Under the pieces are notes generated by a model. That model saw only the letters and a program-made list of their open reading frames with translations, made no database searches and was not told the DNA's origin. A stretch of DNA of 64,000 nucleotides from Sulfurovum sp. (GTDB lineage Bacteria > Campylobacterota > Campylobacteria > Campylobacterales > Sulfurovaceae), in contig JALXCZ010000013.1 of the NCBI GenBank assembly GCA_026990595.1, positions 1-64,000 of the forward strand. The letters run 5' to 3'. Below are positions 4,344-57,454 of this stretch, piece by piece (positions within the stretch are counted from its first letter, which is position 1; each line of letters starts with the position of its first letter). Made by a program: the position numbers and the translations under genes.

Positions 4344-5297
4344 ATGAAACAAACCCATCAACTTATCCAAAAATGGTATAAAGATCACGGAAGAGTTGAT
4401 CTTCCATGGCGTACGACTAATGATCCCTATCACATTTATCTGAGTGAAGTTATGCTTCAGCAGACACAAGTCAAGACAGTCCTTGAACGTTATTATTTTC
4501 CTTTTTTAAAAAAGTTTCCTACCCTAAAAAAATTAGGGAATGCACCACTGGATGATGTATTAAAAATGTGGGAAGGTCTGGGATACTATAATCGCGCTAA
4601 AAACTTACATAAAACTGCGGGAGCGGTAAATGAATTACCTTCGGATATAGACGCATTGATCAAGCTCCCTGGTATAGGAAAAAATACTGCCCATGCAGTC
4701 GCAACATTTGCATTCAAAAAACCTGTACCCATTATGGAAGCCAATGTGAAGCGTATCCTCTGTCGTCTGAATAAACTTAAAACACCTACAGACAAAACAC
4801 TTTGGGAAATAGCCTATAATTTAGTAGATAAAGAAAATCCTTTTGAGTACAATCAGGCTATGATGGACTTAGGCGCTATCCTTTGTACGCCAAAAGATCC
4901 ACGGTGCAAAGTTTGTCCTCTATGTGATATTTGTCAAGGAAAAGATGAGCCTACGCTCTACCCTAGGAAGAAAAAGCATGTGGTATCTACACGTGAACAG
5001 AATATTATGATTTCAGTTTATAATGACAAACTCTCCCTCACGCAGAGAAGCGGCAAATTTCTCCATGGGCTCTGGGGATTTCCTTCTCTTGATGTACCCC
5101 TGTGTGCTTCAGAGTACATTGGTGATGTATCCCATGCCTATACACATTTTAAACTAAAGTGTAAAGTCTACGTCTATAATGCGCCTAACAAGAAAGAAGA
5201 ACACTATTTTACTATAGCACAGATACAAAAGCTGGCTATCTCAAAAGTGGATGATAAAATAGTTAAATTGTATTTAGATACAATACAGACATATTAA
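4344..5297 (+). CDS. mutY: A/G-specific adenine DNA glycosylase
   Basis: A 317-residue base-excision-repair enzyme that removes adenine mispaired with 8-oxoguanine. Visible are [10 protein letters not shown] with catalytic E35, the helix-hairpin-helix LPGIGKNTA (108-116), the [4Fe-4S] ligands at C181, C188, C191 and C197 in the C-x6-C-x2-C-x5-C pattern, and a short NUDIX-like 8-oxoG recognition domain (about 215-317). The segment equivalent to the E. coli D138 site reads MEANVKRIL, with Glu132 where Asp is expected. The start has no Shine-Dalgarno but a TATAAT box 6 nt upstream. folE follows 14 nt later. Confidence 0.95.
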
Positions 5298-5311
5298 TAT
5301 TGGAATTGATG

Positions 5312-5890
5312 ATGAACAAAAAAGAAGAATTTAAACAAGCTGTCACAAAAATACTGGAACTTCTAGGGGAGGATCCTAAGCGCGAAGGACTCATTAAAAC
5401 ACCAAGCCGTGTAGCCAAAGCACTACAGTTTCTTACAGAGGGGTATGACCAAGACCCTGAAGAGATACTCAATCAGGCACTTTTTACCACCTCTAACGAT
5501 GAGATGGTCTTGGTACGTGACATAGAATTTTACTCAATGTGTGAACACCATATGCTGCCCATCATCGGGCGTGTACATGTGGCGTACATCCCAGATGGTA
5601 AAGTCGTAGGACTTTCTAAAATTCCTCGTATTGTCAATGTCTATGCCAGACGCCTGCAGATACAAGAGCAGATGACCGAACAGATAGCCGATGCTATTTT
5701 AGGAACCATCAGACCTAAAGGGGTTGCCGTAGTAGTACATGCCCGCCATATGTGTATGGAAATGAGAGGAGTACAGAAGATCAACTCTACGACGGTCAGT
5801 TCTGCCCTTCGCGGACTCTTTAAAAGTGATGAGCGTACCAGAAGTGAGTTCTACAACCTCATCAATACCCCTACTCCTTCCAATTTCTAA
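5312..5890 (+). CDS. folE: GTP cyclohydrolase I
   Basis: About 192 residues; converts GTP to dihydroneopterin triphosphate, the first step of folate synthesis. The motifs [11 protein letters not shown] (zinc Cys and His), GLSKIPRIV and [12 protein letters not shown] (second zinc Cys) are all present. Upstream in frame are TTG (5300) and two consecutive ATGs (5309, 5312); the GGAA at 5302 is best spaced for the ATG at 5312. It follows mutY by 14 nt and probably shares its transcript. Length is close to the usual 190-220 aa. Confidence 0.96.
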
Positions 5891-5891
5891 A

Positions 5892-6281
5892 CTATTGTTT
5901 CAGCAACCAGGAGAGGGCTTTTTCTCTCTCTTTAAAGAATTTTGATTTCCCTTTCATCAGGTGACTCATCATTTTTACAGAAAGCTCTTCCCATTTTTTA
6001 TTACCGACAATAGCCATTTTATCAAACGCATTACGATGCTTAAGTCCAAATTTCATATCATCCCAGCCTGCCAAAAGTTCCCAGCCTGTAAAATCTCTCA
6101 TATCTACCAAGAGATCAACTTCCAGTCCTTTTGCTTCTTTCAGAGCTTTATCGATCATCGGAACAAAAGTCTTATAATCCTCATGTGTCAACTTCCCGAG
6201 CATAGAGAGTTCTACAAACACTTTTTTTTTCGTTCTTTTGATAGCAATACTTATTCCATGTTCTTTTATTGTTTTTGCCAT
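5892..6281 (-). CDS. SpoIIAA-like (STAS-related) protein
   Basis: A 129-residue soluble protein of the SpoIIAA-like type (DUF3478-like), with alternating strands and helices: IAIKRTKKKVFVELSMLGKLTHEDY, then LLVDMRDFTGWE and KMAIVGNKKW. These resemble membrane-attached STAS-like domains whose role is not well defined. No signal peptide or transmembrane segment is seen. It is convergent with folE (1-nt gap) and has its own AAAGGA Shine-Dalgarno. Family assignment rests on overall pattern; no function can be given. Confidence 0.75.
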   Translation of the reverse strand: MAKTIKEHGISIAIKRTKKKVFVELSMLGKLTHEDYKTFVPMIDKALKEAKGLEVDLLVDMRDFTGWELLAGWDDMKFGLKHRNAFDKMAIVGNKKWEELSVKMMSHLMKGKSKFFKEREKALSWLLKQ

Positions 6282-6408: not shown

Positions 6409-7698
<1,290 letters not shown>

Positions 7699-56603: not shown

Positions 56604-56688
56604 AGGTAACTTTTCATTATTATTTTGTACCTTATTTCCCTCCTCGGTACAACCTCCTTTAAATTATATATCAGTCGAAAAGTTACCT
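56604..56688. repeat. nested inverted repeats
   Basis: Outer 12-bp arms AGGTAACTTTTC (56604-56615) and GAAAAGTTACCT (56677-56688). Inside them are 7-bp arms TTGTACC (56625-56631) and GGTACAA (56646-56652) around a pyrimidine-rich loop. On the minus strand the loop is GAGGAGGGA and AAAGGAGG lies between the two stems. Confidence 0.75.
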
Positions 56689-56699
56689 TTATTTTGCCT

Positions 56700-56932
56700 A
56701 CATGGCTGCATTCACTACGTTCATTTCGACCATTTCGGTTCCGTAGCTAAAAACAACAAGCAGTTGTTGTATTGTTTCGCCTTCATGGGTCACCTTGTTC
56801 CACCATTTCGGTTTCTCTCCTGTAAACGTGAAGCAGTTCACATAAAGGTATCGTTTTCCTCCATGGCTACGCTTTCGCTCCGACCACTCCGGTTCCGTAG
56901 CTAAAAACAACAAGCAGTTGTTGTTTTTTTTA
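56700..56932. repeat. three tandem hairpin repeats of about 75-80 bp
   Basis: Units start near 56701, 56784 and 56862 at CATGG. Units 1 and 3 share CGACCA.TTCGGTTCCGTAGC and end ACAACAA-GCAG-TTGTTGT, a 7-bp stem with loop GCAG. Unit 2 is diverged, ending GTGAA-GCAG-TTCAC: another stem sequence, same loop. In units 1 and 3 CTACG/CGTAG also pairs. Confidence 0.75.
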
Positions 56933-56935
56933 ACG

Positions 56936-57454
56936 CTACTCACCCCATCCATGCATTTTTTTTGAGATCAGTACATCATAATGCTCAAACAGATCATCTA
57001 TAGTGCTGCTTGCCACATAGTAGTGCTCTTCAAACAGTGTCATCCAGGTATAACGCTGTGATTTATCTCCTTTTGGAATGAAGATCAGTATAAGTCCTGC
57101 ATTTTTAATGATGCCGTGGGCTTTTTTTAAAAAATCACTTCTACTCTCTTTTTTTATGCTTGAAGTGATAAAAAGATATTCATAAAGTTTGCCTTGTATC
57201 ATATATCTTGGTCTCTCAAGGGAAAATTTTACAGGCTTTATATAAGTATGGTCTTGGTATTTGTTTTCTAATATTTCAAAAAAAGAGGGTTCTGTACAGT
57301 TTAGTTGGTATTCATACTCATTTTGAGAGCAGAAATCTCCTAAGATTTCTACCATTTTTTCACCACTTTCACAAAAATGGGCAATACGTAGAGCAGGAGC
57401 AGGTGCTATGATCTGCAGCAGTGTTTCCAGTTTGTCTTGTTCTATGCTTTTCAT
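56936..57454 (-). CDS. hypothetical protein, possible methyltransferase-like fold
   Basis: A 172-residue soluble protein: APALRIAHFCESGEKMVEILGDF near the N-terminus, YEYLFITSSI in the middle and AHGIIKNAGLILIFIPKGDKS later, the last like the post-motif strand of Rossmann methyltransferases. No complete SAM motif (GxGxG) is visible, so the function is unclear. No Shine-Dalgarno is obvious before the ATG. It ends at the tandem hairpin repeats. Confidence 0.65.
   Translation of the reverse strand: MKSIEQDKLETLLQIIAPAPALRIAHFCESGEKMVEILGDFCSQNEYEYQLNCTEPSFFEILENKYQDHTYIKPVKFSLERPRYMIQGKLYEYLFITSSIKKESRSDFLKKAHGIIKNAGLILIFIPKGDKSQRYTWMTLFEEHYYVASSTIDDLFEHYDVLISKKMHGWGE

Follow-up and report, generated by a model that had tools for sequence, protein, structure and literature searches.

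Structured hairpin repeats at gene ends in Campylobacterales: consensus, distribution and possible origin

Background

Among described repeats, the closest to the element considered here are the GTAG and CGTC REPs, both of which are listed for Sulfurovum NBC37-1 in the survey by Di Nocera et al. (2013, PMC3733652). REPs are characterized there as single hairpins of 20-40 bp with an unpaired GTAG or CGTC tag, arranged mostly in head-to-head or tail-to-tail pairs, the GTAG type being tied to RAYT transposases. GTAG REPs are reported there to often supply the stop codons of ORFs, and the capping of reading frames by repeats is therefore known in kind.

The tandem array studied here lies in the window, meaning the whole 64,000-nt stretch of Sulfurovum DNA that was analysed, and belongs to a repeat family that is real, strongly structured and distributed order-wide in Campylobacterales. 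The family is probably undescribed, as no description of this repeat was found in the literature searched, and no Rfam family matches the element at the gathering score. Unlike REPs, the element is about 85 nt long, has two hairpins and a TGAG start, and forms direct tandem arrays without a RAYT link; this separation from the Sulfurovum GTAG and CGTC REPs is based on their descriptions rather than on a consensus, and some overlap with them is possible.

Organization of the array

The array occupies positions 56695-56942 of the window on the minus strand and consists of three direct units, whose starts lie 73 and 81 bp apart (Table 1). Within the unit, the outer stem, A, begins at TGAG and encloses the inner stem, B, whose loop is CTGC; a second hairpin is designated C. 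An earlier note on this DNA had placed the repeats at 56700-56932; they are indeed present there, but they belong to the minus strand and extend ten bases further. The three units with an invariant GCAG loop on the plus strand that it described were recovered as direct copies, together with the ACAACAA/TTGTTGT stems at 56753-56770 and 56907-56924 and the GTGAA/TTCAC stem of unit 2. The second stem that it proposed, CTACG/CGTAG, was not supported and represents a competing pairing, with 75% of its cells paired across the family compared with 72% in shuffled alignments.

Table 1. Coordinates of the repeat units, their parts and the adjoining gene in the window
Feature	Position	Strand	Remarks
Unit 3, gene-proximal, intact	56856..56942	-	93.0 bits
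Unit 3 outer stem A, 5' arm GTAGC	56935..56939	-	overlaps the gene's stop TAG 56936-56938
Unit 3 outer stem A, 3' arm GCTAC	56897..56901	-	pairs with 56935-56939
Unit 3 inner stem-loop B, loop CTGC (GCAG on +, 56914-56917)	56903..56928	-	
Unit 3 hairpin C, irregular helix with GNA/GNA internal loops	56858..56892	-	
Unit 2, degenerate	56778..56860	-	58.5 bits; GTGAA/TTCAC hairpin 56828-56841; outer stem 5' arm lost
Unit 1, degenerate	56695..56786	-	72.7 bits; longer C loop; hairpin 56753-56770; outer stem 5' arm lost
172-aa gene, no Pfam match	56936..57454	-	last codon and stop within unit 3

Only unit 3 is intact, and its minimum-energy fold contains helices A, B and C as in the family consensus. 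This unit folds better than its shuffles (z of -2.10), whereas units 1 and 2 do not (-0.03 and -0.50, respectively). Exact matches to the 18-mer ACAACAAGCAGTTGTTGT number two in the window, both of them inside the array; when up to three mismatches are allowed, there are three matches in the window against 0.03 expected. Just past the array, a perfect 12-bp inverted repeat, AGGTAACTTTTC/GAAAAGTTACCT, is found at 56604-56615 and 56677-56688 with its arms 61 bp apart, and similar sequence also lies beyond the array in two orthologous loci (L002 and L005).

A protein-coding reading of the array was rejected on the absence of a Pfam match and on the frame not being maintained; a single frame across the array is impossible because the spacings are 73 and 81. 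The view that the minus-strand frame is fortuitous holds for the 84-aa ORF at 56698-56952, which has no Pfam match and whose frame is not kept, but a real minus-strand gene of 172 aa ends within the array, its terminal GGT-GAG-TAG lying inside unit 3.

Consensus structure and covariation

The consensus of 43 copies, TGAGAAGCGTTAAGnAAACGACAACTGCTTGTCGTTTnTAGCTTCGGAACCGGAATGGTCGGAGCGAAGnGnAGCCATGnAGGCA, contains three helices: A (GAAGC/GCTTC), B (10 bp with the loop CTGC) nested within A, and C (ATGG..CCAT, with GNA/GNA internal loops). In the alignment of these copies, which was produced with MAFFT irrespective of structure and was itself in view when the structure was chosen, 92% of the pair cells are paired, compared with 72% after shuffling and at most 45% with slid partners. 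Changes on both sides were observed in 19 of the 23 pairs, and the covariation score reached 0.528, against 0.178 for shuffled alignments and at most 0.115 when partners were slid by 1-3 columns. Similar values were obtained from a second set, which comprised 26 distinct copies, the majority belonging to other families in the order, and was aligned by fitting to the model (93% paired, 19 of 23 pairs changed on both sides, score of 0.497 versus 0.126), and stem B is 99.6% paired in distant copies. As the shuffle tests are inflated by related sequences, the slid controls and the distant subfamilies carry the most weight. Compensatory changes are present inside each subfamily, and covariation extends to the outer stem A, whose two arms flank another hairpin at a distance of 34 bases, and to the irregular stem C. 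These results bear out the earlier claim that pairing is preserved while the sequence changes, and the reading of the array as selected for structure (RNA or single-stranded DNA) and not for protein is supported in that the structure is conserved and strongly covarying, with the qualification that correction of palindromes during replication may contribute besides selection.

The assignment to the minus strand follows from other copies, which start with TGAG where a gene ends, and from folding: of 117 copies, 99 with RNA parameters and 108 with DNA parameters form a better fold in the sense strand than in the complement. Stem cells contain 1.8% G-U and 1.2% A-C pairs, compared with 10.5% G-U pairs in the tRNA stems of the same loci, a figure drawn from only 14 tRNAs. 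The scarcity of G-U pairs leans towards a DNA hairpin rather than a functional RNA, and it also agrees with palindromes being corrected through template switching. A strand asymmetry judged from G-U versus A-C pairs was also considered and rejected, as the difference (40 versus 26, p=0.11) is not significant.

Taxonomic distribution

The element was searched with R1, a covariance model of 85 positions and two hairpins, which identified seven copies at four loci in the window's own genome. Within the genus, 62 of 78 genomes carry the element, with 0 to 39 copies per genome; within the family it was found in 116 of 175 genomes, representing 10 of 11 genera. The order-wide counts, 141 of 399 genomes and 44 of 87 genera, take in weaker relatives sharing the A/B core and possibly some chance hits, part of the weak hits having been inspected. 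Named records with the element include Sulfurovum, Nitratifractor and other Campylobacterales MAGs. In a phylum-wide draw, for which the number of genomes from outside the order was not given, all of the matches listed fell in Campylobacterales. By its own terms, the reading in the earlier note would have been refuted by a complete lack of similar repeats elsewhere; they are in fact found across the family and the order.

In other families, weaker hits retain the A/B core (CGTTAAG, AA-CTGC-TT, TAG); many of them start with GGAG, and other hairpins take the place of hairpin C. The sharing of this core by sequences with a different start and a different hairpin C therefore indicates a superfamily of which R1 is one branch. 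Copies from the same genome resemble each other no more closely than those from different genomes (identity of 74.6% and 73.4%, respectively), and the serS copies agree at 0.86-0.94 between species of the genus; thus, in the genomes sampled, the family looks old and not bursting. Near-identical tandem units were observed at loci L028 and L139. Carriage by phages or plasmids was considered and rejected: no phage match was found, IMG/VR pattern hits were at chance score, and a single Sulfurovum mangrovi plasmid record was noted.

Position relative to genes and stop codons

The 111 distinct array starts fall into three groups: an ORF of 100 aa or more runs into 45 of them, a TIR element of about 163 nt contains 33, and the other 33 lie elsewhere. 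The ORFs were called mechanically, and a few of the 45 ORF-entered arrays are orthologs of one another. The entering ORF is in frame 0 in 30 cases, where the element's own TGA serves as the stop codon, in frame +1 in 13, where the stop is the TAG in stem A or the TAA in CGTTAA, and in frame +2 in two; the common form of the element has stops in all three frames (TGA, TAA and TAG). In 41 of the 45 arrays the protein is extended by at most three residues. Bare copies have a precise 5' boundary between R and TGAG: the preceding base is A or G in 97%, and ATG directly precedes TGAG in 23 of 78 bare copies. The element accounts for the unusual C-termini and stops seen in many genes of these genomes, and gene calling can be misled by it.

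The 172-aa gene of the window has the element at its end in six genomes and clean, element-free ends in many others, where orthologs terminate in, for example, GGT-GGG-TGA (protein ending in KKMHGWGG). Ends of serS, groEL and an SQR-like gene, names that were assigned by recognising C-termini, carry the element in several families. In serS, TATATG is followed by TAA where the element is absent and by TGAGAAGCG where it is present. When junctions at the 172-aa gene and serS were compared for target-site duplications, the 5' side was clear and the 3' flanks were strongly diverged. In element-free genomes, the stop codon of serS (loci L187-L216) is often followed by other hairpin repeats, such as GGTGTGCAATTGCACACC and CGTAGGGGCACCCCTCGTGGGTGCCC. 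Partial second serS 3' ends of 81 codons occur at G075:C6:317876-318118 and G076:C1:374417-374659, about 1.7-2.1 kb from the full gene, with no element adjoining. Integration of an island at serS was considered and rejected: in genome G024 the partial serS copy that adjoins an element is located at a contig end, and the copies in G075 and G076 have no element after them.

Several copies lie away from such gene ends. One is located in frame inside an rhs-like ORF (L098), where the CGTTAA stop is changed to CGTATA; the rhs-like genes carrying the in-frame element at this locus span 5077-6234 and 6821-7621. The TIR element of about 163 nt, with inverted ends GGTTTCACTCGAT...ATCGAGTGAAACC and one 85-nt copy in its middle, was observed at loci L012, L082, L091, L123 and others, in many Sulfurovum and Nitratifractor MAGs. 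In genome G222 (L301-L303), A/B-core relatives are situated between tRNAs and 23S in the rRNA operons as three identical copies, and in G177 (L309-L310) they are found upstream of a 16S match.

Possible origin and role

On balance, we favour with modest confidence the interpretation that these sequences are non-coding, non-autonomous dispersed hairpin repeats of the REP/MITE kind in Campylobacterales, moved in trans and tolerated at gene ends. Such repeats would spread as a sense-strand DNA hairpin recognised by its structure, and would be inserted by a putative recombinase or transposase acting in trans beside the short 5' motif R-TGAG, often ATG-TGAG. Insertions at gene ends would survive by terminating translation within a few codons, arrays like that of the window may grow by tandem duplication, and in transcripts the element would form a structured 3' UTR, with or without a use to the host. 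The patchy dispersal, the empty orthologous sites, the precise 5' boundary and the copies in an ORF, in TIR elements and in rRNA operons speak for this interpretation, and a DNA hairpin is favoured because Watson-Crick pairs are kept with few G-U pairs and because copies sit where no shared RNA role is obvious. No mobiliser was found, Y1 transposases being encoded in 44 of 62 element-bearing genomes versus 14 of 16 element-free ones, and neither a new jump nor a clean two-sided junction was seen; the similarity among copies likewise gives no sign of a recent burst. The gene-end bias could also come from a host function.

That host function may be an RNA element of mRNA 3' ends, in which a fold next to the stop codon shields the transcript's 3' end or delays ribosomes at termination and copies are kept for that purpose. 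Use in the mRNA is suggested by the sense orientation relative to the left neighbour (56 of 68 bare arrays) and by the stop codon within the element with its short extensions; the recurrence at serS, groEL and SQR-like ends, the compensatory changes in each subfamily, and the precedent of REPs near stop codons (PMC12306157) also accord with it. Nevertheless, G-U pairs are very few for an RNA, most relatives lack the element at the same genes, and copies situated inside an ORF, within TIR elements or at a distance from gene ends do not fit, so that this explanation is possible but unlikely.

It is rather improbable that the covariation is largely mutational, with template switching during replication copying one arm onto the other so that palindromes stay perfect. 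Near-perfect Watson-Crick stems, the similar rarity of G-U and A-C pairs, and the almost complete pairing of stem B in distant copies are as expected from such a process, whereas the covariation of stem A across its widely separated arms and of the irregular stem C is not, and the strand-specific GNA/GNA loops of C have been retained although correction would not create them. Membership in the GTAG REPs, with mobilisation by RAYT (Y1) transposases, might be suggested by the frequency of Y1 genes in the genus (58 of 78 genomes) and by the stop codons that GTAG REPs provide and their reported presence in Sulfurovum NBC37-1 (PMC3733652); it is very improbable given the two hairpins, the direct tandem arrays, the lack of a conserved GTAG tag, and the absence of copies flanking Y1 genes or of co-occurrence with them. 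The idea of an intrinsic terminator recurring behind genes draws on that position and on the T-rich end of stem B in some copies, the window's included, and deserves hardly any credence: a terminator scan was blank across the array, the sequence after stem B is TAGNNNC instead of a T tract, convergent neighbours show no enrichment (26 of 56 versus a background of 113 of 270), and a second hairpin is conserved.

We tentatively raise the prospect, itself doubtful, that the family represents an old, order-wide and hitherto unrecognised class of hairpin DNA element directed at the final codons of genes, whose stop codon and 3' end it replaces, being either mobile by means of a putative structure-reading enzyme or domesticated as a gene-end cap. 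Since a model is at hand and the copies number in the hundreds, with exact 5' junctions and naturally empty sites, mobility, gene-end targeting and effects on mRNA are directly testable.

Comparison with known systems

The element resembles the GTAG and CGTC REPs, as described in PMC3733652, in being a dispersed short palindrome mostly behind ORFs, with subfamilies that differ by complementary stem changes; like the GTAG type, it may give the stop codon. The GTAG of unit 3, however, is paired and varies among copies (GAAG, GCAG, GAAC and others), the modelled element exceeds the 20-40 bp single hairpin, and 20 Y1 loci showed no real hit beside them. The CGTC tag, the stem of 8-9 bp beginning with AT and the CCA tail, by which the same survey describes CGTC REPs, are lacking in the consensus. 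In E. coli, REPs located no more than 15 nt from a stop codon (summarised in PMC12306157) likewise place a hairpin directly behind the mRNA stop, whereas in the present element the stop codon is part of the repeat.

The survey (PMC3733652) also covers Rickettsia palindromic elements (RPEs) and bacterial MITEs. As in RPEs, a palindromic repeat can sit in frame within an ORF (one case, L098), but the Campylobacterales element is mostly found at gene ends and its common form has stops in all frames. Like MITEs, which are non-coding, 70-300 bp long, transcribed next to genes and structured, the element is a short structured repeat; unlike them, bare copies have no terminal inverted repeats, their ends TGAGAAGCG and GNAGGCA not being inverted repeats, and a separate TIR element carries a copy as cargo in some genomes. 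The attC pattern (GTTRRRY with RYYYAAC) is not reproduced either, as the consensus contains GTTAAGN with no RYYYAAC partner. Cassettes of attC type were considered and rejected, since element pairs 1.1-1.6 kb apart reflect the rhs-like duplication (L098) or other duplicated sequence with no cassette between them. The GC-rich stem followed by a T tract of an intrinsic terminator is likewise absent. Thus, while it lacks the tested features of GTAG REPs (tag, length and RAYT link), CGTC REPs, TIR-bearing MITEs, attC sites and terminators, the element works like repeats of the REP and MITE types.
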